Source of the DNA: Ulva prolifera | Lineage: Eukaryota > Chlorophyta > Ulvophyceae > Ulvales > Ulvaceae | Length of the DNA stretch: 64,000 nt | Reading direction: 5' to 3' | NCBI GenBank assembly: GCA_023078555.1 | Contig: CM041204.1 | Location: 3,006,430 to 3,070,429, forward strand | In this document: positions 19,532 to 41,938 of the stretch, piece after piece | Numbering within the stretch: the first letter of the stretch is position 1 | Layout of the letters: each line of letters begins with the position of its first letter | The notes under the pieces: model-generated | Told to the model about the DNA's origin: nothing | The model's input: only the letters and a program-made list of their open reading frames with translations | The model's database searches: none | Program-made: the position numbers and the translations under genes

Positions 19532-21858
19532 ATGCCAGGCTTTGACCACCCAGTAAACTTGTCACGCTCAGCGCCCTTTAACATCCACTGCCACCAGATC
19601 ATTTTTTATGATGTTATCGACTCCGAGGCAATGTCTCGAAGCAGCGTCTTGTCCTGTGTCGCCGAAGGTGGTGGTGAAGCCAAGCTGCCGGACTCGGCCA
19701 CAGTCTCTGATTTTCGGAAGTGGTTGTCTGCTGTATCAGACACTGATTTGGTATTTGGCAGCAGGTCCTTCGTTTCGATGTGCACCATCATCAAGGTCGA
19801 GCTCACTTCTCCTTGTCCACACCGCTGACAGGTTCGCAAGATGTGGAACATGTCCGTCCGTGATCGCGGCTTCATTGTCGCAGAACCTTTGTGATCTCGG
19901 AGACATGCATAATCGGGTTCTATAGTGTGCTGAATATGCAGTGCTCGCAGAGTCGCGTGCTGCAGGTTGCGGATGCTGTCGACGACAAGCTCGTCGATGG
20001 CTGGGTCCACACTGCAGCTGAAAGGCTGAAGCAACATGCGCTCTCTCCCAAGTCAGAGAAGGTCAGCAACGACATACTACAAGGCCTGTCTTTGCTTCCA
20101 GAACAACTGCAGCACCGTACCTTGGTTTCAGCTGCATTCCATCCGGGGCAGCTTGACCACTTGCTAGTGGCCTTTCCGGAGTGCCTCCATTCCGCGGTGC
20201 TTGCGGCGTTGACCACGCCAACGAAGATACTCCGGATTCCCTTGACTGCCAGATCGTGCCCTGCTCTCGAGGCCCTGGCGTCCCTGCCATCATGTCCCCC
20301 ATCTGTGCTGGAGCTCCACATTGACAACCAAGCAGCCGAACACCACGGACAGACAAGCAGGCAAGCGGTCTGGTCGGGTCTGAGTCAAGCCTTGCACCAT
20401 CACTCGGGTCTCACCAGTTTCCTCCTGTCTTCGCGCAGCACGGCTGCCTCGCAGTCAAGTCTTCTCCCACACGTAGCCAAGCTGTCGTCCCTCCGCTCCC
20501 TCGACCTGAAAGGGTGCACGCTCCATCAGGACTGTGCGCCGGTCCTGCCCGGGATCCTCCATGCGCTTACGCAGCTGCAGTCCCTAAGTATGAGGCTTTC
20601 AGAGAAGAGCGGCGGTTTCTCTATGAAGCGCCAGCGAGATGAGACTCAACGCCGGCAACACTGCCTGGCAGGCATGCTTTCCGGAGCCACAGCCCTCACC
20701 TCCCTTTACATTCACGTTGCTCAATTGGCTTCTCCAGACCACCAGGGCACCTTCACTGCAGCCGCCCCTCTGCGCACGCCGCACCTCGTCCACCTGACAG
20801 CTATCTGTGAGACCAGACGCGTCGGTTGCTCCGGCTATTTGCATGCTACACCGACTTCCAGAGTCGATGTCGACCTGGCCGCCTGCTTTTTCAGCAACCT
20901 GACCGCTCCCCTGACCAGCCTCACATTTGGTCAGGAGGGTCCGCACGATCCGCAGTCCATTGCACCCACATCCGCAGGTGACGCGGGCCGCCTCCTCCGC
21001 AGCCTGGCCACCTTCACGCAGCTGCGCTGCCTCAGCGCAGTGCTCCCCAGAGACGAGTTCGGCCGAAGCAGCGTCAGCGATGCTCTGACCTCAGCCCTGC
21101 CAGGCCTGATCGCAGCCCTCAACCAGACCCTCAGCCTCGCCATCTCCGCAGATCCCGCTGTGTTGCGCAACATGATGCCGCTTCTGGCCACCACCCCACT
21201 AACCCGGCTGCAGCTGTGGCGGGTGGATGCGCGCAAACTACCGCACGAGGCGTGGCAGCATGTGGGCCAGCTGAAGCTTCATGATCTCAGCATGCAATTC
21301 CGGGCAGTGCGAACTCGAAACAGCATTTTCCACTTGGCCGCCCTGAGCTCCCTCACGCAGCTGACAGCCCTGTGTCTCCGTGGCAGGGGATGCTACTGTA
21401 CCGACGCGGATTGGCGGGCTCTCGCGGCCATGACGTGCCTGCAGTTGGTTTGCCTGGGAGACGAATACGAAGCCCTCGCGGCGCCGGCGGCATGCGTCAC
21501 CTCGCTCCATGCGCTCAGCTCCCTCACAGCCCTGACCGTCATGACAGTAGCTGCCGGCGTTGACGCCATGGTGAGTGGTCTGGCTGCTCGGCCGCTGCGT
21601 GCGCTGCAGGAGCTGCAGCTGGCGCTATATGACCCTTTCAACACGGTGGACGAGCTGGGCTGCTACATGGCCGCGCTGCCCGCCCTCAGGCAGCTCACGC
21701 TGTTCCTCCGCCTCTCCGAACACTATGATGACGATCACTCAGACGACAGTGATGACATGGACGGCGCAGACCCGGCTCAGGATCGTCTTGCTGCTGCCAT
21801 GGACCGCATCACCAGCGCTGCTGCCGGCGCGGGCGTCGAGCTGTCGATTCAGTGCTGA
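19532..21858 (+). CDS. BTB/SKP1-like leucine-rich repeat protein, copy 4
   Basis: Exons are 19532-19795 and 19966-21858, about 718 residues. The ATG follows TTGCAG-AATTTCGCC, which looks like an acceptor, so a 5' untranslated intron is possible. Exon 1 includes IIFYDVIDS and MSRSSVLSCVAEGGG. Exon 2 starts after a clean GTGCTGCAG acceptor with VADAVDDKLVDGWV. The LRR series includes LSSLRSLDLKGC, LTAPLTSLTFG, FTQLRCLSAVLP, LTQLTALCLRG, LRALQELQLALYDPF and LPALRQLTLFL. A strongly acidic linker (YDDDHSDDSDDMDGAD) precedes the terminal helix and AGVELSIQC. The basic insert is MKRQRD. It is closest to copy 7 in both exons. The frame is fully open. Confidence 0.85.
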
Positions 21859-23834
21859 CGGTGGTGCAGCGTGTGCGTTGTGGCCGGGTATGCTATAGTA
21901 CCACAGGCCCCCCCCGCGGTGCGTTTCTGCGTGCTTCTTGCGGCCGGGCGCTTTGCCGAAGCTTTCTGATATTGTTTTCTATGTTGCGCACGTGTCTTGT
22001 GGTGGCAGAGGTTTTGCACAGGACACGCTTTGCCGCTACTGCTTGCGGCCTCCGTCATGCCTCTCTGACGCCAGAGCTCGCCTAGCGCCGCAATGCGTCT
22101 GTCTTGCACCAGGCTCCGGCTGCCGTGGAAGCAGCGCTCACATGCGTACATTGTGCACCAAGGCGGCCTCTGTGCATTCCGCATCAGGCGTTGCAACACA
22201 AGCTATCCTGTGCCGCGATATCTTCTTGCGGCCGCCGCCTCATGATCATGGCTTTGTGCTTTGCATGAGCTGCATGCATTGATTACTATATGCATGTTGC
22301 TGGCATCATCTGCATGTGCACACGGAGTGCCGTACTGCGTCCAGGTGTGTGTACAGAGGCCAGCCCTTGCAGTCCGTCGCTGTGGGTCACAAGTGCTCAG
22401 CCTTGCTCCATGCATGCACTGACCGGTGCGTCGGTGCGGAGGCTGCCCGTGGACTGCCGCACCGGGCAGTCCACCACTGCGCTGCTGTGCGCTGGCTCCT
22501 CTGAACTCGTCGGCTCCTCCCCACTCTCAACTCAAGCCGTCCTGAGGCATCACAGCCGCAACGATCAGATGGCCGCTCCCTGAAGCGGCTGACGCTGCTC
22601 CTCTGCCACGTAGGGTGCGGTGAACATCTCACCTTTCGGCCGAAACTCGTCACTGCAACAGGCCGACACGTCGGACCTAGGGTCATATGCGTGTTGCTCA
22701 GGACCGCATTTCAGCACCTGTGCCGGAGGGGGCATGAAGGTGGCAATACAGAATGACTTGGGCACAGAGCGCCCATCGGGCCCGGGCTACTCCCGCCTCC
22801 CCCACATCACCTCTGGTGTGTCTCTGTGGCCTGCACCTGTTCTGCTGCCGCATGCTTCTCTCTGACGAGAGTCAGCCTGAGGCCAGACGTTCTGGCGCCA
22901 TGTGCCCTGCATCACGCAGTCTCAGTTATGAAAGCAGTGCTCACGTGGGCTGCCCTTGTCTCGGAGGTGGAGCACCGATGATCCCGCAATCACCTCTGTG
23001 TATCGCAAAATTTCGCAAAACTCCGCAAAATACAGAGGGGGCCGGGGCAAGGCACGCTGCGCTACGCTGTGCTGTGATGGCTGCTTGTGGCCGCAACATG
23101 GCTCCTTGCCTGATCTACATGCATGTCACTCTAGATCTGGTATCGTGTGGCCGGCATGAGCAGCTCGCACACATGCAGCACTGACCTGTGGCCAGGCGCC
23201 GTGGCGGCCCTCAACAACGTAGCGTCTACGAGTGCTCAGCCTCGTTCCATGCATGCAGTGACCTTTGTGGCGGAAGGCAGCGGTGAATCGTCCAGTCCGG
23301 CACTGGGCTGCTGTGTGCTGGCTCCCGACCGTCCTCAGCGGATCTCCCAGTACGGCCGGGCTGGCTTGCGCAAGGCCAGCGGCTGGCGGTGCGCTGCCGG
23401 CTCTCCTTGCCGACACTGTAGACGTGCGGTAGAGTTCGGGCCACTGGGGGTCATGCGTGCGGTCTATGCGGGAGGCTAGCCATGGATAACCGGGCTGCGC
23501 CCCCGTCGGACCTGCCTTAATCAATGATTTACCAGGCTGCGTGGCAATCAGGGTGCACAGCTGTAAAGACAAGGGGCTGATGTAGGGCTCTGTCCCAGAT
23601 GGCACAAGCACTTGCAGCCCGGCGGCAACGCTGTCTCGGCACGATTCGAGGTCTGTGTAACGCAACGAAACTCCCTTCACTTCTCGGGCCTCCGTGCACA
23701 TTGGATGCGACATGTTCCTACATGCATGCAAATCATGCATCACGGCGGCGATGACACCTGCACCGCTACAGTTGAAACAGAGGTGCGTCAACACCTGCCG
23801 CTGGGAAGACCAGGCACCGAATCTCCCGACGGCA
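21859..23834. repeat. 3' flank repeat of the ~5 kb unit
   Basis: The same ordered blocks recur after copy 6 (29052-30750) and copy 7 (41939-43990). They include the GTGTxxGTTGTGGCC opening, CATCAGGCGxTGCAACACA-type blocks, a CACAAGTGCTCAGCC segment, CCCTGAAGCGGCTGACG and, further on, GCCGGAGGGGGxAT. No gene is seen. A weak related opening follows copy 3. Confidence 0.6.
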
Positions 23835-25099
23835 CACTGCCTAGCCATCACACTTTCTGCAGCCACAGCCCTCACCTCCCTCCACCTGCACGTCTTTCAG
23901 CGCATCCAACCAGACCACAAAGAGTTCTACACGACAGTGGTTCCCCTGCACATGCCGCAGCTCGTTGCGCTGTCAGCCATCTTCGACAATGACCTCCAGC
24001 TGGGCGCCACCTTCTTCGGCAACCTCAGTGCCCCCCTCACCAGCCTCCACCTCGGCAAGTGGCGTGGGGCTGTGCGGAGCATGCATCCTCTCTATGCATA
24101 CGCAGACCATGCAGGCCGCCTCCTCCTCAATCTTGCAGCCTTCACGCAGCTGCGCCGCCTCTCCGCCGTGCTCCCGCGGGATGCCGACGACTCAACATAC
24201 GGGTTGCCGGACATGGTGAGTGGCGCGCACGAGTCTGCCCTGCCCACTCTAGCAGGTCTGCTGGCATGCCTCCCCCATGTGGTGAACCGCGTGCACCTCC
24301 AGAGCCTCTACGTCTCTGCAGCCCCGGGGAAAAGGGCCCTTTTCTGGTCAACCTCACCCTGCAGCACCTCGCTGCAACGGCGCTGACGAGGGTACACCTG
24401 TGTGGGCTGGCCCTGCAGGACGAGGTGCCACCTCTGGCCCTCCAACGCCTAAGCCACTTCAAGCTGCAGGACCTCAGCCTGCACCTTGAGACACATCACT
24501 CATATGGCCACGGCTTGGCCGCCGTGAGCTCCCTCACACAGCTGACGGCCCTAGCCCTCCTTGGCTGGTGCTGCCTGGACGAGCCCGCGGACTGCCAGGC
24601 GCTCGCGGCCATGGCGCGCTTGCAGCGGCTGTGCCTCTCACACACCGGAGATGGCTTTGCAGTCCCAGCAGCATGCATGGCCGCCATGCATGCGCTCAGT
24701 GGCCTCACGGCCCTCACCACGGTGTCGTCGGAGGCGGACGCGAGTCTGGTGCCCCACTTTGCGGCGAGGCCGCTGCCGGCGCTGCAGGAGCTGACATTGG
24801 CGCTGTATGATTCCTTCAGGGCGGTGGACGACCTAGCAGGCTATGCGGCATCGGCGCGCGGGCCGCATCGGCTGACGGTTCACCTCCGCCGCTCCGCATA
24901 CACCGACCATGTGGCGAGCACTGACAACGATGAAATTTTCACGGAAGAAGATGCCGACCCTGAAGAGGCATCGATTCGACTGAGCATCGACACGCAACAT
25001 GTGGCCCAGGAGCGCCTCCAAGACGTAGAGCAGAGCCTAACTGAAGCTGCTGCCCTTGCTGGCGTGGCTCTGTCGGTGAAATACCATGGGTTCACGTGA
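23835..25099 (+). pseudogene. BTB-LRR family copy 5, 5'-truncated and frameshifted
   Basis: Similarity begins at about 23835 inside the LRR region (HCLAITLSAATALTSLHLHV), so the BTB-like exon, intron and first third of exon 2 are missing. The frame continues through LSAPLTSLHLG and FTQLRRLSAVLP, then breaks at about 24325-24340 near the CCCCGGGGAAAAGGGCCC run. It resumes in the next frame (HLAATALTRVHLCGL) and runs through LTQLTALALLG, LPALQELTLALYDSF and the helix ending AGVALSVKYHG at a TGA. The last LRR has degenerated (SARGPHRLTVHL). Two frames and no start support a pseudogene. Confidence 0.75.
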
Positions 25100-26619: not shown

Positions 26620-29051
26620 ATGTCAAGCTTCGCCCACCCAGTACACCTATCACGATCGCCACCTTTTGACATCCACTGCGACCAGCTTTGTTTTTATGAT
26701 GTTATTGACTCCGAGGCCATGTCTCGGAGCAGAGTGCTGTCCTGCGTTGCCGATGGTGGTGGTGAAGCCAAGCTGCCGGACGCGGTCGAAGTCTCTGACT
26801 TCCGGAAGTGGTTGTCTGCGGTATCAGACGATGATGCGGTATTTCGGAGCAGATCATTCGCTTCTATGTGCACTATCATCAAGGTCGGGCCCACTTCTCC
26901 TTGTCCGCACCGCTGTCTGACTGCAAGCTGTGAAGCATGTACATGGACGTCCGTCTATGATGGCCTCTTCTATGTGAAAGTACCTCGTCCGGACATCGTG
27001 CATTGCTGGGATTTGCAGTGCTCCGTAGAATCGCGTGCTGCAGGTTGCGGATGCTGTGGACGACGAGCTCGTCGATGGCTGGGTACACATTGCAGCGGGA
27101 AGGCTGAATCAGCATGCGCTCTCTCCCATTCCAGAGAACCTCAGGGATGGTATACGAGATGGCCTGTCCTTGCTTTCAGAGCGGTTGCGGCACCGAGTCT
27201 TCGTTTCAGCTGCATTTGATCCGGGGCAGCTTGACCACTTGCTGGCGTTCCTCCCAACGGGTGTCCAATCCGGGGTGCATGCCGCGATGACCACGAGGCG
27301 GAACATGCTCAGCATGCCTGTAACTTTCAGATCATGTCCTGCTCCCATGGCTCTGACGCCCCTGCCTGTATCTCCCACATCTGCGCTGGAGCTTCACATT
27401 GACGATCAAGTGGCTGAACAGCGCGGGGGGAATGCCGGCCAAGCGGTCCCGTCGGGTCTGGATCAAGCCTTGCGCCATCACTCAGGTCTCACCAGTATTC
27501 TTCTGTCTTCGCCCAGCACTGCTATCTCGAAGTCATACCTTCTACCACACATTGCCAGGCTCTCATCTCTCCGCTCCCTGGACCTCAAAGCGTGCATGCT
27601 CCATCAGGACAGCGTATCAGTCCTGCCTGCGGTCCTCGAAGCTTTGAAGCAGCTGCAGGCCCTGTGGCTTAGATTCTCGGAGAAGATGGACACCTCCACT
27701 TTGACTCGCGGGCAGCTTGAAGAAATGCCAGCACAGGCGCACCACTGCTTGGCCACTGGCAGTATGCTGTCTGCAGCCACAGCCCTCAGCTTCCTTCAGA
27801 TCCACGTTGATCAAAAGTTCTTCCAGGACACCGAGGCTGCTTCACGGCAGCGGCCCCTCTGCTCATGCCGCAGCTCGTCCACCTGAAAGCCATCTATGAA
27901 CACAATGGCAAGGGCTCCGTCTTTTCCCATGACGTAGAGATGTTCAGCATCGATGTTGACCTGGCCGCCTGCTTTTTCAGCAATCTGACCGCTCCCCTCA
28001 CCAGCCTCACGCTTGGTCAGGAGGGTCTGCAAGACCCAAGGTCCATTCATCAATCATCCGCAGCCGACGCCGGCCGCCTGCTCCGCAGCCTAGCAGCCTT
28101 CACGCAGCTGCGCTGCCTCAGCGCCGTCCTCCCCACAGATGTTTCTGGAAGAGGTAGCATACGCAGCACAGTAACCGAAGAACTTCCCAGCTTGATCGAA
28201 GCTCTCAACCAGCCCCTGAGCCTGTCCATCTCTACAGACGCTGCCCCGCTGCGTCGCATCCTCCCGCTGCTGACTACCAACACGCTTACCCAGCTGCACT
28301 TGTGTCGGGTGGTCGTGAGATACATACCGTACCAGTTCTTCCAGCATGCAGGCTCAGGCCTGCGAAAGCTCAGCCTCGACATCCGGGCAACACCACCTTG
28401 CGCCCTCCACTTCACCGCCCTGAGGTCTCTCACTCACCTGACGTTCCTGTGCATACGTTGCTATGAATGCATCTGTCCTGTCGCTGATTGGCAGGCGCTC
28501 GCAGCCATGACAGGCCTGCGGGCGCTGTGCCTTGGTGGTGATAATGAACCTGGCCTCGAGCTCGCGGCCGCATGCATCAGCTCGATACATATGCTCAGCT
28601 CCCTCACAGCCCTGACTGTCATGACAGCAGACGGTGAAAAGGACGTGATGTTGTGCGGCCTTGCCGACTACCGGCACTTCAGGAGCTGCAGCTGGCTCTG
28701 TATCAACCGTTTGGTACTGCGCACGAGCTGGGCTGCTACGTGGACACACTGCCCGCACTGAGACGGCTCACAGTGTTCCTCTGCTCCTCGATTTGCCGTG
28801 TTGACCATGGGTCAGGCGGTGATAATGGCATGAATGGGGCAGACATGGCCCGGCAGCGCCTCCGTGTTGCCAGGGACTGCATCAGCAGCGCTGCTGCCGA
28901 TGCGGATGTTGACCTCAGGCTGTTCATGCAGTGCCGAAGCTGCTGGGGTATATGCTATGCACTGCCTGAGGTGCGGTTCAGTGTTCGTGCAGCGGCAGAG
29001 CTGCACGATGCTGTCTCATATCTGTCACGCTTTACACTTGTGTATGGCTAG
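26620..29051 (+). pseudogene. BTB-LRR family copy 6, two frameshifts, lost stop
   Basis: Exon 1 (26620-26883) and the start of exon 2 (27044 onward, after GTGCTGCAG) are intact, with LCFYDVIDS, MSRSRVLSCVADGGG and VADAVDDELVDGWV. The frame then slips at about 27815-27830, just before a GGACACCGAGG stretch that sister copies read in another frame, and resumes as MPQLVHLKAIYE. A second break at about 28670 lies where some four bases are missing relative to copies 4 and 7; the last LRRs (LPALQELQLALYQPF) are in the third frame. The usual TGC TGA ending reads TGC CGA, so translation would run on to 29051. The basic KRxRD insert is also gone. Confidence 0.75.
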
Positions 29052-31579: not shown

Positions 31580-34500
31580 ATGCCTGGCTTGCACCACCCA
31601 GTGCACTTGTCGCGCTCGGCGCCTTTTGACATCAACGACGACCAGATACTATTTTATGATGTTATCGACTCTGAGGCCATGTCTCGGAGCAGCGTGTTGT
31701 CCTGCGTTGCCGAAGGTGGTGGTGAAGCCAAGCTGCCGGACTTGGTCACGGTCTCTGACTTTCGGAAGTGGTTGTCCGCTGTATCAGACCCTGATGCGGT
31801 ATTTAGGAGCAGATCATTCGCTTCGATGTGCACCATCATCAAGGTCGAGCCCACTTCTCCTTGTCCACACCGCTAACGGTTCGCAAGCTGTGGAACATGT
31901 CCGTCCATGATCGCGGCTTCAGTGTCGCAGTACCCTCATGTTTTCGAAGATGGTAAACAAGGAACAATATTTTGCTGTGATGCACAGTGATCGCATAGTA
32001 GCGTGCTGCAGGTTGCGGATGCTGTAGACGACAAGCTCATCGACGGCTGGGTCCGTATTGCAGCGGAAAGGCTGAAGGAACATGCGCTCACTCCCAAGAC
32101 AGAGGAGATCAGCAATGATGTGCTAGAAGGCCTGTCTCAGCTTCCAGAACAACTGCAGCACCGTACCTTCGGTGCAGCTGCATTTGATCCGCGGCAGCTT
32201 GACCAATTGCTAGTGGTCGTTCCGGAGGGCCTCCATTCCGCTGTGCTTGCGGCATTGACCACGCGAAAGAAGACACTCAGGATGCCCTTCGCATCAGAAT
32301 CGCGCCCTGCTCTCAAGGCCCTGGCGTCCCTGCCATCATGTCCCCCATCTGTGCTGGAGCTCCACATTGACAACCAAGCAGCCGAACAGCACGATAAGTT
32401 TGTCGGGCAAGCGGTCTGGTCGGGTCTGAGTCAAGCCTTGCACCATCACTCAGGACTCACCAGTTTTCTTCTGTCTTCGCGCAGCACGGGTGCCTCGCAG
32501 TCAAGTCTTCTCCCACACAGGGGGTCATCCACTCCCGCTAAAAGGTGGTCCCCCCCCGGGCGCGCAAAATCCGCTGCGAAACAGCCAAATTGGGGAAGGT
32601 TTCCACTATGGTCTATGTTGAATGAACAATTCTAGTGTTTTAGTTCGGAGTCTTGGGGAGAGTTGGCCATATTCGCCGAAATGGCCGGTCTGGTTGGGGA
32701 GAACTGTCTGTGGCTTCCCAACGCTGCCCAAAGCTGCCCAATCACTCAATTCCTTCCCCAATCTTTCCCAAATTGCATCTTTCAAGTTAATAGGTGTCTT
32801 CGGTTGCCTATGGACGGCCGCGCCGGATTGTTCCGTAGCCCGGTGACGTCCTTTTGTGGCAATTGACTTGCTACTGCTCCGAATCACCTCCTGAGGACGT
32901 GCTACAGCTGGGGGACGGTTGTGTCACGACCTATAATCCATTGCTAACTAGTACTTGATCTCCGCATTCTGTTGTTGTCGCCTTAGTGGCCTGATGCTAC
33001 AGTGTAACGACTGCAGCTTGCCCTTGCTGGTTCAAACCTGCTATATATCTGCCTGCTGCTTCTCTGTGCAACAGAGTCCATGCTTGGTATTCAGTCACCT
33101 GCAAGTTGTGTACTGCTAGGCAGCAAAGTATTTCTGCTATGTTTTGTGCATTGCGCTATGTGAATGTGAAATGCGGGTATTTCGTCAGGTGTCCTAGCCT
33201 TTCGAAAACCTCTATGATGGCGGCCATTGCCTCTTGCTCCGGTCATTTATTTGATGCATTTCGTGCAGACCACGTAATTGACGGTATTGTCGCACAAGCT
33301 TTGTCGCCGGGGATTAGTCCAGACTATATACACTGTACAATTTTATATCTGTGCCCGATCATATCTCAGGACTCAACATACAAACAAGCGACACTGTTCA
33401 GCCACTCAATCATGACATGGTAGATGGCTACATATGTGTACACACATCAAGCATGTGCTTCACATAAATGCCAATCTCCATGAATTGTCCAGCTTACAAA
33501 ACATATGCAGTCTCAATGGCAGTTAGCACCACATCCGGCTCTGTCAATACACATTGCCTCCAATCGACATTGACTGATCTCATGATAATTGACGATCCGC
33601 TAATATTCACCTGCTCCTGTGGCCCACATTCATCTTCATCCCCCCCTACTTCTACCTCACGGCCTGTGAGTGCGGATTCATATTGTGCTGAGGCACACGA
33701 AGCCTCAACTGTCCTAGAGGTCACTACACGGTAGTATTCCACTGGCTCTTCGCATGTCATGAGGTCACCAGTATCACGGTCAACTTGTGCCCATGGGTAG
33801 CAGACCATCAAGGCGGTATGGTCGGTACATGGCACCGACAGGAATACTTGTCGTTTCTTTGCTGTTGTGGATATTGCAGCGACAAGTTGCCGCACCTGCC
33901 CGACATAAAAGAGGGGTTCGGTAAAGTCTCCTGTTTTGAAGACTGCTAGTATGCTGCTCCCAGTTCTCAAATCCTGTTGCTGGTTGTATGACTCCATGTC
34001 TTTAATGGTGCCTTTTCGGTGGTCCCGCTGTTTGGCAAAACGCTCGAGCATGTTTCGGAAATCTGCTTTGTTGTGGATGTTGGCTGCCATACGCAGTAGA
34101 TGCGCTACTGAAATGTATTCTCCCGGCTGTCCTGTGCTAACACATTCACCACGCTTTGAGCGTGAAGTAGCGCATCTGGCAATAAGACTTTTGGCGTTCT
34201 GTGCATCGATGGGGGAGATAGAACCCTTGCCACTGCTGTTCACTACGTCCCGCATCTTGTTTATGGCAAGGTTGAATTCGGCAAGCTCCTTTGTGACACG
34301 AGCCAAATGCTGCCATTGATTCATCTCTTGGGCGGTTGGCAAAGGCGATTTGTTGGACTTTGACGCCGCAACAACAAATCTATGCCTTGCAATTGCATCC
34401 TGCATATACTTGTAAATTGGTTCTGGACACATTGGGCCCGTCGGGGTGAATGCTGTCACCCTGATTTATACTGAGGGTGCCATGCCGAACCTGTCACACA

Positions 34501-37500
34501 AAACCTGGACAAAGAGTTGTGAACACATTGTCGGTAGTGGATAGCCTCCGCACCGCCGGTGACACTGGTGCAATGATCTCCAGGTAAGTCGGCATGACCT
34601 TGCTCAATGTAGGGAATTTAAGCAGCAAAGGGCCATATCCCAAAACATCTAGCAGCTCATATGCCATTTGCACACCAGTGTGAATTGAACATGTAATGTC
34701 CCAATCGCTGGTGGTGCACTTGTAGTGCGAAAGATCATGCAAGGTGTGGCGCCCTGCGTGTTTAGACTTGAGTGTGGTAATGAGTCCGTCTGCCTCTGCT
34801 TTGTTCGTCATCATCACCTTTGGTATGTGCCTCACAGCAGACCCGCAAGACACGGCGCCTGTATTTTGAAGGCTTCCGGATGACCTGATCTCCCCAAAGA
34901 ATGATTCACACTCTTGCGAGCCACAGCATCCCGGCACAAATGGGTACGCATCTTTGTCACCACTCTCACACGCTCTATGTTGGACATGTAGGCAAGCCGC
35001 AAGCCCTGGAAGAGCGTTGCATATGGCATGTCGAGTGGGGGCGGTGTAGCTGTGCCCTTGCAAAGAGTATTTGAAGTCTGTCATGGGAGGGTTGGTCTTG
35101 GGCCCATGTGACATAGCCACTGTCTGAAAGACAAGAAAAGTGTGGGCGAATGCACACAGCGCCAATCGTGTCATTGGAGAAAACGGTGCTTTGTCCGGGT
35201 CGTCACAAAACGCAGCTAGGTGGGCCGCTGAGATAAGCACATGGACAGCTGTCCCCAAGGCGCCCGGAAGATGTTGTAGCAGTGCTAGGCAGACCTGTAT
35301 ATGCCATGTCTCATAAACATCTACAGTCCTTGATCCAGCTGAGTGCACAACAACATCTCGCAAGTGGTATAGAAAAAGTAAATGCCTGCTCACCTTGATT
35401 GATGCAATCTCTTGACATCGCTTGTTATTTTGGGAGCTATTTGACACATCCAACACGGCGCCTGATATACCTGATTCGATGCCCAATATCTCAAATAAAA
35501 GCATCAAGTCTGTAAGTAAAGCGGGTCCTATCCCTGGCACAAAGCCCATGACAAGAAGCTTCACCAATTTGTCTCGTAGGTGTTTTCCCTGCGGTAGCAA
35601 TTTCTCATTCAAATGACACACAACGAGCTGGAACGTCTCGGGCACAGGCCGTTGTCAATGATCGTTCGCACCATCAGACGATTGTCATGGCGCCACTCGG
35701 GTGATATACCCAGAAGCCCTCCCGTAATTGCACACTTCTGGAAGGCGTAAGGAAGTCCTTGATATGGGACCGTCCATTGATCAGCCAAGAGCTGGTCAAT
35801 ACGTTGACGCTTTGTGCCATTGATTTGCGTTAGATTGCGCAACAAGTGTTGAATGACACTGATGGGGCGCTGCAATTTGGGCACGAGGGATATGGCAAGG
35901 CTCTCCCAGTCAGAGTACTCACCGGTCCCCTCACCACTGCTTGTGGACTCCAGTTTTGAAAGCAATGTATCTGCCTCGGGAATGGACATGCGGCGAATTA
36001 TACCCCGGGCAAGAGCAGCGTGCGGGGCAGCATTGTCTGCCCCGAAAAAACTGACCATGCGCCCTTGGTCATGTGCACGCTGAATGATACTGTGCAGCAT
36101 GACAGCATCATCAATGGTCGTTAAATCTCCACACGAAGGAACCGTCGCAGCTATGAAACTACGTTTACCTCTGACGGGATCAAGAATTATCCACACACAT
36201 AGAAGAGTCGCCGGGGGTATGCCCGAGAGGGAGTCAATAAATTCTTTGTCTTCAGTCTTCTCAGAAACTACAACTGAGCCGTTTTCCACTCGGGTCGTCC
36301 TCACCAGGACCCCACCTTCATCCTTCATAATGTATTGCACACCTTCGGGGTTGTTTTCTCGAATGCAACGGTTACTCAGACCAGCAACCTCGTAACCAGG
36401 CGGGTTTGTCGATGGAATGCTGTCCACAACTTGGTTCACAGCAACCTCGTCGCAGCATACATGGGATGGTTGGGATGTCCAGTTAGTCAGGCAGGAGAAA
36501 GCCTCTGGAGGCTGCAAGGAGAAGGTGGGTGTGGATAGGGTCGAATTACGCCTCTTGATTGTCAATTTGCCAGGCATTGTATACATGGCATTGGCAGCAA
36601 GCAAGCCTTGAACCCAGGTGGCTTGTCTCCGCTCTGTAAAGGCACTGGCCGCCAGCAGCCGCTGCCCGGCAAGACCAGGGTAGCGGCGTCCATGAACAGA
36701 TTTACCTTTCCGCCATACATTATTGAGCTGCAGGAGTTGTAATGACAGGTCATCCTCCGTCAGTTTACCTTCAACTACTAACTTCTGCGCCTTCCTCACA
36801 AATTGTTTCACGACAGGGTTGAGGTTTGACACGCTCTTCTTCACTGCTGACTCAACATCACGTTTCAATCTGCGAGTCCTCTGCTTACGAACGACCTTTT
36901 GAGAGAACTTGAAACGTGCCTGCCCACTCTTGTCGTTGGATCTTCTGGAGAGCCAATGCATGAAAGAATTGTACACCCGTCCCTTCTGAGACTTGTGTAA
37001 CCAAAGACTGACGCAGTTGGGGCACATGCCGGATGGATGAGTTGTAGAATCAGTGCAGTGGATGGACCGTAACACACGGGCCCCCTTTCGAAAGGTCACC
37101 TTTACAGACATCGCAGCTGCAGACTTAGATGCTGATGCATCTGAGTACCATTCAAGTAATTCCGGGCGGGCTGTCGGCAAACCGGCACATGGGCACAAAG
37201 GCAGTATAGGATCAAGGACGAGATTGGGGGAATCTGTCACGGGGTCATGCAACTCGTCTCCACCAGCATGCCCCCCTAGACGTTTCCCGCGGCACGCGAG
37301 GTCCCTGCAGCATTAATCGAATCCGCCCTCCTGCCTGAATGAAACTTTTCAATTGCATGCATAAGCCGAGCCCCATGCGACTTCAACTTCAATGCAGCCA
37401 TCGCCTCTTCCATTCCAGGGATCCCATGGTCAATTGCATCGGCAATCTCGTATTCATCAGGGGCAATTGGGATGAGTTTAGCTACGCAGTCATTCCACGC

Positions 37501-40500
37501 CTCCTTGTACGTTGCGAACAAGTTCTGGGCCTGAATCCCCTACAAACAGCATGCTACTAATGACAGGCACCGGATCACGCCAACATCATGAGTTCAACAG
37601 GCTTCCGACCAACATCATCACACCATGACGATGAAGGAACAACTCACGTCAATAATGCTGGCTGCAACCTCTGGTGAACAGTTGATATCTTTGAAAGTGG
37701 AATACTGTTTACTGATAATTAGCGGGTGGTCCTTGTATGCTCGTTGCAATGCATTCCAAAGTAGGCTGTCTGAATTACTGTCATCGACTTCAATTGTTGG
37801 ATGTGAGGCGATACTGACGTGTGGAATGGGGAGGGGACGCAGTGGGGAGGTGGTAATATCGCCCTGCATAGCCGATCTGCCTCGTTTCTCCACCACAGCC
37901 TCTGCGGATTGCTCAGTGACCTGAGCAACGATGTCATCGTCCTCGGTATCAGCTGAAATTTCTGGTTCCTGCTCCGTCTTCTGGGGAGATTCCATGACTA
38001 AAACGCCATCATGTTTTTGACGAAGAACCGTCACGGAAGCCATTTCCTGAATTTCTGATTTCTTGATGGCTGCTGCAAAGGATGATGCATCTTCAATCTT
38101 TTTACCACTCCCACGCAGAAGACCGTGAGTCAGCATCCCTTTTGGTTGAATTGTGCCTTGGTAAACATACTCCAAAGCCTCCCGAGGTCGAAATTGCGGC
38201 TTGGGCAGAGCTCGTAGCCGGCTACGAGAAGTCAGAAAACGTAATCTAGCAGTGACCTTACTGTATAAGGAATTCTTGCTCGCCCTACACATCGATTGAG
38301 TGAAGTCCCACGGGCATTTTGTATAGACACCATCAGATTAGAAATGCACACTGAGTGATGTTCGTAATGCAGTTATCCATTGACAAGCTTAAGGACCAGT
38401 ATTGGCGTACCACCAGCGCTGTCTCAACTGACCACGAACGCTGTTATTGCAATCTTCCGAAAGATAGAATATCACAGGGAGAGCATCGCCAGGGGCCTGC
38501 ACTGTTGCTTCAAGAGCAGACATTGCTTCAACCTACAAATCCAACAAATCACGGTTGCACCCCAATTTACATCACAAGCTACCAGCTCAATGGGTTGATT
38601 ACGCAGCATACTCGGAATGGCTTGATATCGCCTGCTCGAATAGCCGCTAGCAAGGCAGCATGTTCTTCCGAAATATTGCAATCAGTCTCGGACGGTTTCT
38701 TTATCTTGCTTGCAGCGAATTCCAGCTCCGCAGCTCGATATAAGGCTGTATAGCTAGCGGCCGATAGGAGCAGAAAATTTAACAAACACAGCGCATTGTC
38801 TTCAATGAAGGCACGGGCACAAACAAATGGATCGCCCCCCGTCATCAGTGGCAGAAAGGCATTGCAACAATGAAAGTAAACGCCGCCCCTGCTGTGCTTA
38901 AAGTCTCCTGCACGCACATACCATTAAGGCTTAAGGCTGGGCTACAATGCAAACATGCACATGCTGGTACACATTCACTCACACGCACTCATACTTAGCG
39001 TATGCAGACACACACGGACAATAATGCGATAAGATATCACACGACTGCGTGCAAATGTAGACACAGACACAGACAGGCACAGACACACGAGCATTCACCA
39101 GCAACAGTACGCAAGATTGCGAACCTGCCACATCATCAAAAACCGGAGTCTTGTTAGATCGCAGACTTGCGTCCTCGTCGATCCGAGTGTCCATACGGTC
39201 TAAGACCTCACAGTACATGCCAGCGATGTCTTCAGTGCTAGCCCCGTCCGGAAACATGAACCGCAAGTACTTGTCACAATCAAGGGCATGTTGCTTATAC
39301 TTGACTTCACCAGCCTGCCATTCAATCGCCTACATGACACAAATAAGTGCTCAGTCCATTACTGATGAATTTTGCAAGTACATGATGCCTAAACTACATT
39401 AGGATGACTGCGCACCGCTGTGTGAAGCTCTGTCACCCGTGCCAAGAAATCAGCGATCAATGCGTCTGACACCCACTCAGCGGGCATAGGCATGACATTG
39501 GCCAAAAGGTCGTCTAGGGCTTCCCTGCACAATACTCGACTGTCTACTGGTTGTACTGTGGCACCTTCTATTCCGTGATCCGTACTGGCCTTCGTGGAAT
39601 TGCGCGCAGACTTCGACACAGATGCCCGAGAGAGCATCTCTATCACAGTACATTGAGTGTTTACAACCGACGACCGCTCGTCTGAACCAAGCCCTGTTGG
39701 GGCTTCGTCTGGCATGGATGACGGTGTAATCGAGGGGAGGGGATCTTGCAAATGGCACGGTGAGGGGTCTCTCTGGCGGGCCCCAGCTGGTGAATCCTAC
39801 AAGTGCATATGCTGAAGTACAATGCCACGCCATGCCTTCACATGTAAGATCACAAAGTTGGAAAGAAAGCGTACCCGCCAGCTACGTGACTGTGCATAAT
39901 GCGCCAGCCACTCCCTAGCGCCACTGTCGAGCATGAGTTCCACATAGCTGTTACCACCACTGCCTTTCGTAGACTCGAGGTCAGCTAACTTGAAACAAAA
40001 CTGGAATATTTCGGCGTCCCTGATCTCATTTGGCACGAGCCTAGCTCGTGCAATGGCGGGCAACACAGCGTCTTGTAGCTGCCTCGCCGTCACAGGCTTG
40101 CGATTGATGTAATAACAAGCAGAAACGTTTTCGACAGCATCATCTAACTCTTGTTGCGCCGGTCTCGCGCGAGACACCATTGTCTGATGGACACAACACA
40201 GCCGACAAATGTAGTACTCTCGAACTTCTACCGATCAGGCGTCGAGAGTCACAAACATGTCATGTAACAACAGTGCAACAAATTATAGCTCATTTTCGTT
40301 GTGTTCCTCGGTCTGGAAGCAATGGCGGTTGATTGGGGATGATCTCGCATCGTTCCCGCGATATTGGGGAAAACGGCGACATTTCGCCGAAAAGGGCACT
40401 CTGCTTGGGGACTTTCCCCAAGACTGAGATCGTACACTACGAGTTCCCAATTAACATAGACCATAGTGGAAACCTTCCCCAATTTGGCTGTTTCGCAGCG

Positions 40501-41938
40501 GATTTTGCGCGCCCGGGGGGGGACCACCTTTTAGCGGGAGTGGATGACCCCCTTCCCACACGTAGCTAAGCTGTCGTCCCTTCGCTCCCTTGACCTCAAA
40601 GGGTGCATGCTGCATCAGCACAGTGTACTGACCCTGCCCGCAATTCTCGAAGCGCTGACGCAGCTGCAGACTCTGAGGCTGAGGCTTTCTGTGAGGATCG
40701 ACACCTCCTTCCTGAACCGCCAGCGAGACGGAAAACCACAGCCCCAGCACTGCCTCGCCAGTATGCTGACCGGCGCCACAGCCCTCACCTCCCTCTACAT
40801 CCATGTTGCTCAACGCATCATTCCAGGACAACGGAGCAGCTTCACGGCAGCGGCCCCTCTGCGCATGCCGCAGCTCATTAACCTGGCAGCTATCTTTGAG
40901 GACAATGCCAAAAGCTCCGCCTTTGCACTTAAGGCACCGAGCTTCCACGTAGATGTCAGCATGGCCACCTGCTTTTTCAGTAACCTCACTGCCCCCCTCA
41001 CAAGCCTCACGCTCGGCAAGGGGGGTCTGCTCGAACCGCGGCTTCGTGTAGATACGGCCGCAGGTGACTATCTGCAGCTCCTCCGCAGCCTGGCAGCCTT
41101 CACGCAGCTGCGCTGCCTCAGCGCTGTGCTCCCGACAAACCGGCACATAGACGCCAGCCGCTCCAGCGCAGCGGCCTCAGCCCTGGCCGGCCTGATCGCA
41201 GCTCTCCACCAGCCCCTCAGCCTCGCCATCTCTGCAGATCATCCTGTGTTGCACAGTATCTGCTGGGTGCTGACCACCACACTGACCCGGCTGCACTTGT
41301 GTCACGTGCACGCGATAAGACTATCGCAAGGGTTCTTGCAGGATTTGTGCCAGCTGAATCTGCAAGACCTCAGCCTCCACATCGTACAGGATACGACGCC
41401 AACCGCTTTCCCCTTGGCCGCCCTGAGCTCCCTCACGCAGCTGACAGCGCTGTATCTCCGCGGCAGGAATTTCTTCTGTCTCGACGCGGGCTGGCAGGCT
41501 CTTGCGGCCTTGACGTGCCTGCAGGAGCTGTGCCTCGGCGATCAGTTCCAGCCCGTTGAGGTGCCGGAGGCATGCCTTACTTCGCTGCATTCCCTAAGAG
41601 CCCTCACAGCTCTCACCGTCATGACACGAGACTGTGGCACCGACGTAGTGAAAGATGGCCTGGCCGCGCGGCCACTGCGGGCACTGCAGGAGCTGCAGCT
41701 GGCGCTGTATGATCCGTTCGACACCGTGGAAGATCTTGCCTGCTACGTGGCCACACTGCCCGCCCTCAGGCAGCTCACGCTGTTCCTCCGCTTCTCAGAT
41801 CACTACGATGACGACGATATAGGCGATAGTGATGACACGGACGCCGCAGACCCGGCCGAGGAGCGGCGTGCTGTTGCCAAGGACTGCATCACCCGTGCTG
41901 CTGCCGATTCGGGTGTCGAGCTGTTAGTTCAACACTGA
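31580..41938 (+). CDS. BTB-LRR family copy 7, interrupted by a transposon
   Basis: Exon 1 is 31580-31843. Exon 2 begins at 32012 after GTGCTGCAG and is open to 32518 (...SSLLPH), where the transposon starts. Coding resumes at 40562 (VAKLSSLRSLDLKGC) in the same frame and runs to TGA at 41938. Apart from the insert and its duplicated 8 bp, the two parts form one unbroken frame of about 715 residues, close to the 718 of copy 4. Features of the family are all present: LILFYDVIDS-like BTB core, LNRQRD insert, FTQLRCLSAVLP, LRALQELQLALYDPF, an acidic DDDDIGDSDDTD linker and SGVELLVQH. As it stands the gene is disrupted and a truncated product would end soon after residue 257. The absence of other damage suggests the insertion is young. 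Confidence 0.85.
32511..32518. repeat. Target-site duplication, left copy (TCCCACAC)
   Basis: Identical to 40554-40561. Sister copy 4 has a single TCCCACAC at the same codons. Confidence 0.9.
32519..32619 (+). repeat. Left terminal inverted repeat, 101 bp
   Basis: Begins AGGGGGTCATCCACTCCCG and ends CACTATGGTCTATGTT. It is identical to the reverse complement of 40453-40553 by eye, including an eight-C run. Confidence 0.92.
33494..34459 (-). CDS. Transposon ORF, likely C-terminal part of transposase
   Basis: An open frame of about 321 codons with no familiar domain name. Visible features: an N-terminal helical region, GDFTEPLFYVGQVRQLVA followed by VFLSVPCTDH and YPWAQVDRDTGDL, which looks like a small beta-rich module, and an acidic stretch GGDEDECG near the C-terminus. 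It lies 35 bases downstream of the preceding frame and could be joined to it by a very short intron or separated by a frameshift; I could not find a join that keeps frame. The first codon used here is GTG, so it probably does not have its own start. Confidence 0.5.
   Translation of the reverse strand: MTAFTPTGPMCPEPIYKYMQDAIARHRFVVAASKSNKSPLPTAQEMNQWQHLARVTKELAEFNLAINKMRDVVNSSGKGSISPIDAQNAKSLIARCATSRSKRGECVSTGQPGEYISVAHLLRMAANIHNKADFRNMLERFAKQRDHRKGTIKDMESYNQQQDLRTGSSILAVFKTGDFTEPLFYVGQVRQLVAAISTTAKKRQVFLSVPCTDHTALMVCYPWAQVDRDTGDLMTCEEPVEYYRVVTSRTVEASCASAQYESALTGREVEVGGDEDECGPQEQVNISGSSIIMRSVNVDWRQCVLTEPDVVLTAIETAYVL
34494..37539 (-). CDS. Transposase catalytic region (P-element/THAP9-like)
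   Basis: Open blocks run from an exon starting after GTAG at 37539 (GIQAQNLFATYKEAW), through 37252-35609, to 35645-34494. In the middle block are CxxC pairs near the start (CPC, MCPNC), a basic segment, CCDEVAVNQ (about residue 268 of the block) and, after VWIILDP...SFIAATVP, the pattern RMVSFFGADNAAPHAA (D at 406). The third block has GSQECESFFGEIRSSG. D, D and E in these contexts resemble the acidic residues of P-type RNase H-like transposases. The middle and third blocks overlap in different frames at about 35609-35645. The first and middle blocks also do not join in frame with a sensible intron near 37276-37300. Either small introns are missed or the copy is damaged. Confidence 0.55.
37648..40180 (-). 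CDS. Transposase 5' exons
   Basis: Five exons chain in frame on the minus strand. 40180-39875 starts with ATG (MVSRARPAQQELDD) and ends TGGCGG|GTACGC. 39796-39416 (DSPAGARQRDPSP...ELHTA) ends GCG|GTGCGC. 39329-39125 (AIEWQAGEVKYKQHALDCDK...FDDVAG) ends GCAG|GTTCGC. 38907-38612 (DFKHSRGGVYFHCCN...GDIKPFR) ends CGA|GTATGC. About 38274-37648 ends ATTGAC|GTGAGT. Phases agree at each junction I tested; the fifth acceptor (GCAAG|AATTCC) is the least certain. No named domain is visible. Such N-terminal regions usually bind DNA, but that is inference. Confidence 0.55.
40453..40553 (-). repeat. Right terminal inverted repeat, 101 bp
   Basis: Reverse complement of 32519-32619 without a visible mismatch. 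It ends ...GTGGATGACCCCCT immediately before the duplicated TCCCACAC. Confidence 0.92.
40554..40561. repeat. Target-site duplication, right copy (TCCCACAC)
   Basis: Second copy of the 8 bp duplication. The LRR frame resumes at 40562. Confidence 0.9.

Follow-up and report, generated by a model that had tools for sequence, protein, structure and literature searches.

A recently mobile DNA transposon of Ulva prolifera with a probable −1 frameshift signal in its putative transposase gene

The DNA considered here (the window) is a 64,000-nucleotide stretch of the green alga Ulva prolifera, positions 3,006,430 to 3,070,429 of contig CM041204.1 in assembly GCA_023078555.1 (C9:3006430-3070429 in the numbering used below). 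Within it lies a complete DNA transposon inserted in a coding exon of a leucine-rich-repeat-like gene, flanked by an 8-bp target site duplication (TSD) and carrying a large spliced gene whose reading frame switches once at the heptamer GGGAAAC (Table 1). We consider it highly probable that this is a recently mobile element whose full transposase would require a −1 frameshift at the heptamer, aided by a stem-loop. A first-pass annotation of the window had described the insertion; the coding content of the element and its frameshift signal are new here. Light-harvesting proteins are encoded in the assembly (38 matches to PF00504, counted by exon), which marks the source as a photosynthetic eukaryote; gene style and base composition likewise suggest a green alga.

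The ends of the element are inverse-complementary over exactly 101 bp, with position 102 the first mismatch (an inverted-repeat search of the window reports the pair as 120 nt at 93%), and the coordinates given in the first-pass annotation for these perfect repeats and for the duplication TCCCACAC are exact. When 32518 is joined to 40562, leaving a single copy of the duplication, the host frame is open across the junction (SLLPH/VAKLSS) through to the stop at 41938; with the insert in place the frame from 31991 enters the element and stops at 32635. Six uninserted paralogues inside the window span the junction (tblastn, 140 residues around it), the best of them, at 20263-20682, sharing 105 of the 140 residues and having 86% DNA identity over 367 bp. 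The joined frame and these paralogues bear out the earlier statements that the host frame is undamaged and that LLPH continues to VAKLSS as in its copy 4, and the insertion as a whole – element, duplication and host frame – is confirmed. No identical uninserted copy was present among the 22 candidates scored in the assembly with the joined 600-nt junction as query, the best paralogue having 83% identity over 599 bp. The G+C content of the element (32519-40553) is 50%, compared with 59-60% in its flanks, which might reflect arrival from another genome.

Copies were sought throughout the assembly (88.9 Mb in 44 contigs) by scoring the best 40 candidates, such that counts of more diverged members are lower bounds. 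Twelve places match the full 882-bp left-end query at 98-100% identity, and a 304-bp right-end query finds the same 12. All 12 have exact 8-bp duplications, and chance is therefore excluded as a source of the perfect end pair and its duplication; terminal inverted repeats (TIRs) of 101 bp, the duplications, and the presence of full and deleted copies are together those of a cut-and-paste TIR transposon. Three copies are full-length (8,035 bp, 8,033 bp, and 9,488 bp, the last with a nested element). The nine shorter copies, one of 5,027 bp and eight of 1,552-1,824 bp, retain both ends around internal deletions whose breakpoints form five different pairs. Relative to the window copy, the full copy on contig C3 has three substitutions and a 2-bp deletion, and that at C9:5171207-5180694 has four substitutions and the 1,445-bp nested insertion; the deletion falls in the fourth segment of the gene model and the nested insertion in the sixth, and the window copy has neither. 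Three of the short derivatives, each 1,553 bp long, have the same sequence although their TSDs, at three sites, all differ. The near-identity of the full copies and the identity of derivatives at different sites thus point to recent transposition by a transposase source, and recent activity of the family is well supported. The first-pass annotation had suggested recent movement from the perfect ends and undamaged host and had proposed a genome search for other copies; the two further full-length copies, near-identical over about 8 kb, strengthen that suggestion.

Two of the 12 places, L012 (C4:8304500-8307300) and L013 (C4:2835400-2838200), hold the same 1,765-bp insertion in opposite orientation, with identical sequence and near flanks, and thus represent one insertion duplicated with its surroundings by an inverted duplication on contig C4; counting these once leaves 11 independent insertions. 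The nested element (positions 1457-2901 of locus L009, the C9:5171207-5180694 copy) has ends TAGGGCTGGCC and its own 8-bp TSD ATGATGGC; the ends look like those of hAT elements. A second subfamily consists of ~1.4-kb elements with ends mostly 80-86% identical to those of the window element and with exact 8-bp duplications in all eight complete elements fetched; a further locus of this type, L026, has one end only, and L020 is an 86% fragment without ends. Among L021-L025, L027 and L028, four copies are identical or one base apart and have different duplications, and this subfamily has therefore also moved recently. No autonomous member of it was found among the loci listed, which are a lower bound.

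The longest stop-to-stop frames in the element (567, 386, 323 and 239 aa) all belong to the minus strand; no plus-strand frame exceeds 142 aa. A splice model built by hand from GT-AG signals, and open throughout by choice of junctions, has 11 segments and nine predicted introns, with its ATG at 40180 and its stop at 33494. Codon preference, trained on segments x6 to x9, favors the model frame in all six held-out segments (x1-x5 and x10), narrowly in x1 and x5. The frame changes just once where no intron fits, and that is at GGGAAAC. By its coding capacity the element appears to encode a transposase, with the putative catalytic part in the second frame, where candidates for the three acidic residues of a DDE-type RNase H fold lie in CCDEVAV, GADN and QECESFF.

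Table 1. Features of the transposon, its putative frameshift signal and its host gene (positions in the window).
Feature	Position	Strand	Remark
Complete DNA transposon, 8035 bp	32519..40553	- (strand of its gene)	
Left terminal inverted repeat, 101 bp	32519..32619	+	begins AGGGGGTCATCCACTCCC
Right terminal inverted repeat, 101 bp	40453..40553	-	matches left end perfectly
Target site duplication TCCCACAC, left copy	32511..32518	.	
Target site duplication TCCCACAC, right copy	40554..40561	.	
First reading frame, 742 aa	37276..40180	-	ends AGN-V-stop; hand-made splice model
First-frame segments	40180-39875, 39796-39398, 39329-39125, 38907-38612, 38532-38411, 38284-37648, 37539-37276	-	
Slippery heptamer G GGA AAC, in register of first frame	37282..37288	-	identical in L034, L035
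First-frame stop TAG	37276..37278	-	TGA in L034, L035
Stem-loop 3' of heptamer	37241..37274	-	arms 37274-37266 and 37250-37241, base 37245 bulged
Second (-1) frame, putative catalytic part, 1184 aa	33494..37282	-	
Second-frame segments	37282-35672, 35588-35394, 35294-34505, 34452-33494	-	junction 34505/34452 least certain
Host leucine-rich-repeat-like gene, portion before insertion	31991..32518	+	
Host gene, portion after insertion	40562..41938	+	same frame, stop at 41938

The genome also contains two decayed relatives, L034 (C4:6894500-6904400) and L035 (C1:10502000-10511000), which provide an evolutionary comparison. Protein identity to the later segments is 32-83% by stretch for L034 (61% in the longest, 297 aa) and 27-50% for L035 (39% in the longest, 147 aa). 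Of the first-frame segments, just the final two are represented in these loci; the first four have no match at E 0.01, the fifth being absent from the query. Both relatives have other frame breaks and stops besides the switch that they share with the window, and neither is framed by inverted repeats like the ends of the element. The frame change from 35672 to 35588 is read as an intron, because L034 there carries a donor, GATGGTAAGC, and an acceptor, TGTAGGGG, that enclose poorly matching sequence; a second frameshift considered at this position was dropped, since a donor GTAAGC and an acceptor TGTAG occur in that decayed relative. The acidic motifs are conserved between the window and L034. 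We note that a hairpin at L034 3420-3546, whose 53-nt arms are complementary at 91%, adjoins this decayed relative together with a flanking pair of 44 nt.

By tblastn, the change from the first frame to the next falls on one and the same residue in all three sequences (window, L034 and L035). In the window the segment before the switch (xA) ends GCG GGA AAC GTC TAG and the next long frame is read one step back on the same bases, CGT CTA GGG; the corresponding sequences are GCG GGA AAC GTC TGA in L034 and GCG GGA AAC GTT TGA in L035, with the next frame again −1. A heptamer of the X XXY YYZ form is thus in register in all three lineages, with one codon between it and the stop in each. Codons upstream of the switch vary synonymously (GGG/GGG/GGA, ACC/ACG/ACT, TCG/TCT/TCC), and the first frame is therefore coding up to the heptamer; directly past the switch the −1 frame of each sequence encodes R-L, using the leucine codons CTA, CTG and TTG. 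A canonical heptamer (three equal bases, then AAA or TTT, then not G) is expected by chance at 0.00146 per codon position of random sequence, or about 2% by hand arithmetic over the overlap of the two open frames in the window, ~12 codons long.

Signals for −1 frameshifting have a stem-loop or pseudoknot about 5-9 nt downstream of the heptamer. When a 40-nt segment beginning at the sixth base past the heptamer is folded, a single stem-loop forms, in an equivalent position in the window, L034 and L035, with energies of −16.1, −15.7 and −18.3 kcal/mol and with 16, 31 and 2 of 500 dinucleotide shuffles, respectively, as stable; the first stem pair is 7, 6 and 6 nt past the heptamer, within the usual distance in each case. 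Within the stem, 5/6 wobble positions show no change, compared with 18/95 in aligned codons beyond it (p 0.0012; the L034 row there holds a frame break, which lowers the background count) and 18/81 in codons before it (p 0.0026). A 20-base pattern built from the signal sequences, with two mismatches allowed, occurs six times in the genome, each time exactly – in the three full copies, the 5-kb copy, L034 and L035 – and its reversed control occurs twice. A search against Rfam gave two sub-threshold matches, neither at the frameshift signal. From this shared arrangement of heptamer, stop and stem we infer programmed −1 ribosomal frameshifting at GGGAAAC.

A short or alternatively used intron could instead remove the frame switch at 37282 from the same transposon, and all nine other junctions in the model are GT-AG introns, the switch lies near CTAG/G in the window and TGAG/G in the relatives, and the stretch from HAIEK to GTSR varies in both length and sequence. 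This explanation is unlikely, however, as synonymous changes conserve the first frame through its stop, marking it as exonic, the AG is offset by one base between the window and the relatives such that the frame would break, no conserved upstream donor is evident by eye in the alignment, and the identical in-register heptamer and stem are left unexplained. Less probable still is the production of two separate proteins without fusion, the second initiated at an internal AUG by reinitiation or internal initiation. Each frame is long enough to stand alone (742 and 1,184 aa), but the AUG nearest downstream of the stop lies within the stem and in the zero frame, and reading from it runs into a stop at codon 11; the second frame has no AUG before codon 58, whereas residues in common with L035 already lie ahead of that codon. 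That the break is simply a disabling mutation common to a family with no autonomous copy, as the other breaks and stops in L034 and L035 could suggest, is the least credible alternative, since its position agrees to the base among lineages with 61% and 39% identity in their longest stretches, both frames are conserved around it, and the 567- and 386-aa frames are open in all three full-length copies.

Several observations nonetheless weigh against a frameshifted transposase. The signal is present in only three independent sequences, of which two are decayed. A 101-nt fold that includes the heptamer is not unusually stable (z 0.72; 151/200 shuffles as stable); unusual stability is confined to the 40-nt segment described above, and there L034 is borderline (31/500). 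Non-stem wobble positions are invariant in 3/8 cases among the first 14 codons, and the local contrast in stem conservation is therefore modest. A pseudoknot between the loop and downstream sequence (GACGAG/CUCGUC by eye in the window) was considered and rejected, since 658, 1630 and 877 of 2000 shuffles matched it, which is the level of chance. The second catalytic aspartate is uncertain because FFGADN in the window corresponds to FDGADN in L034. Comparison of the element protein with Pfam gives no transposase family up to E 10 and nothing above the curated cut-off, comparison with solved structures gives chance-level matches or none, and a single-sequence structure model of the 567-aa open reading frame (mean pLDDT 36.7) is unusable.

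With a frameshift at GGGAAAC still the favored explanation, the events can be pictured as follows. The element inserted into the leucine-rich-repeat exon, duplicating 8 bp. During translation of its gene, the ribosome would slip back one base at GGGAAAC, assisted by the stem-loop just downstream, fusing the 742-aa N-terminal protein to the putative catalytic half to give 1,925 aa in all. Most ribosomes would presumably stop one codon past the heptamer and yield the N-terminal protein only, with a minority producing full transposase, such that frameshifting would keep the transposase scarce; the short product may bind the ends of the element or act as a partner or repressor. The likely role of the arrangement, much N-terminal protein and little transposase, is suggested by analogy with the bacterial IS1 and IS3 elements and with Kat1, discussed below.

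The superfamily to which the element belongs is less clear. The motif GSQECESFFGEIRSSG resembles the ELFFgxIRsrGG block of P-element and THAP9 transposases, and the 8-bp duplications are as in the P superfamily; we treat the element as an unclassified TIR transposon of a low-copy family matched to no described family, the leading guess being that it is P-like, by that motif only. Membership by sequence of hAT and Mutator was rejected on the Pfam result, as was that of P (no TNP-like RNase H match up to E 10), and no THAP family appears among the Pfam matches of the element protein. In profile searches of the genome, PF21789 has three sub-threshold matches, none in element copies, with its control detected in one genome, below the cut-off; PF21787 has no match and a silent control, leaving its power unproven; and the KDZ group (Zisupton, Dileera, Kyakuja) was rejected for want of a match to PF18758, again with a silent control. 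The P-element and KDZ negatives are therefore weak. Scans of viral contigs and of prokaryote genome contigs, starting from few short peptides, confirmed no relative, and nothing among the matches listed from the algal transposon literature was recognized as this element. Duplications of 8 bp are also given for Zisupton, and usually for hAT, in PMC12730594, which counts 24 Repbase superfamilies.

The element shares features with several known systems. Many bacterial insertion sequences limit transposase by programmed −1 frameshifting; in IS1 and IS3 a −1 slip at a slippery run makes the full transposase and the unshifted product is a regulator, although these elements are bacterial and small, and no sequence relation is implied. 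Elements of the P superfamily, including THAP9, have 8-bp duplications, internally deleted derivatives and a truncated regulatory form of transposase. The element is like them in its duplications and deleted derivatives, and would be so in having a truncated product, whereas its 101-bp ends and its putative frameshift contrast with the 31-bp ends and intron retention of the P element. Among eukaryotes the closest parallel is Kat1 of Kluyveromyces lactis, a domesticated hAT transposase whose gene, according to PMC4763223, contains a −1 frameshift bypassed by programmed frameshifting, limiting its expression. Kat1 and, putatively, the element both have a eukaryotic transposase gene with a −1 break; Kat1 is described there as domesticated, whereas the gene here resides in a complete transposon with recent copies, its protein has no hAT match, and its heptamer and stem are kept across diverged relatives. 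A programmed frameshift in the Tec2 recombinase gene of Euplotes crassus, cited in PMC5405496 and PMC9797194, likewise lies in a gene of a eukaryotic DNA element, although, to judge by the title of the cited work, this is a tyrosine-family recombinase of a ciliate. Kat1 and Tec2 are the only eukaryotic DNA transposon cases among the matches listed from the open-licence literature, and no algal case of transposase frameshifting was recognized among those matches by title or start of abstract. In the portions available, PMC7175516, PMC6875170 and PMC5014426 treat frameshifting in retrotransposons only, and PMC2268245 treats it only as a possible rescue of a human mutation.

The host gene is part of a tandem array of leucine-rich-repeat-like paralogues that spans 7002-56369 of the window and about 3.01-3.11 Mb of C9. 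At least two of the paralogues are in pieces (23799-25084 and 27035-28916), and further matches to the array are found on C8 and in other parts of C9.

Frameshift control has rarely been reported for DNA transposons of nucleated cells, and the element described here makes frameshift dosing of a eukaryotic transposase directly testable, because the signal is kept across diverged elements and near-identical recent copies are at hand. The insertion in a coding exon can furthermore be scored by PCR in related strains. A bolder proposal, which we advance tentatively and regard as doubtful, is that the element represents a new superfamily of algal DNA transposons, still mobile, whose very large transposase is made only via conserved −1 frameshifting and whose 742-aa product is a DNA-binding partner or repressor. 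If that were true, it would constitute a nuclear counterpart of the strategy used by bacterial IS1 and IS3.

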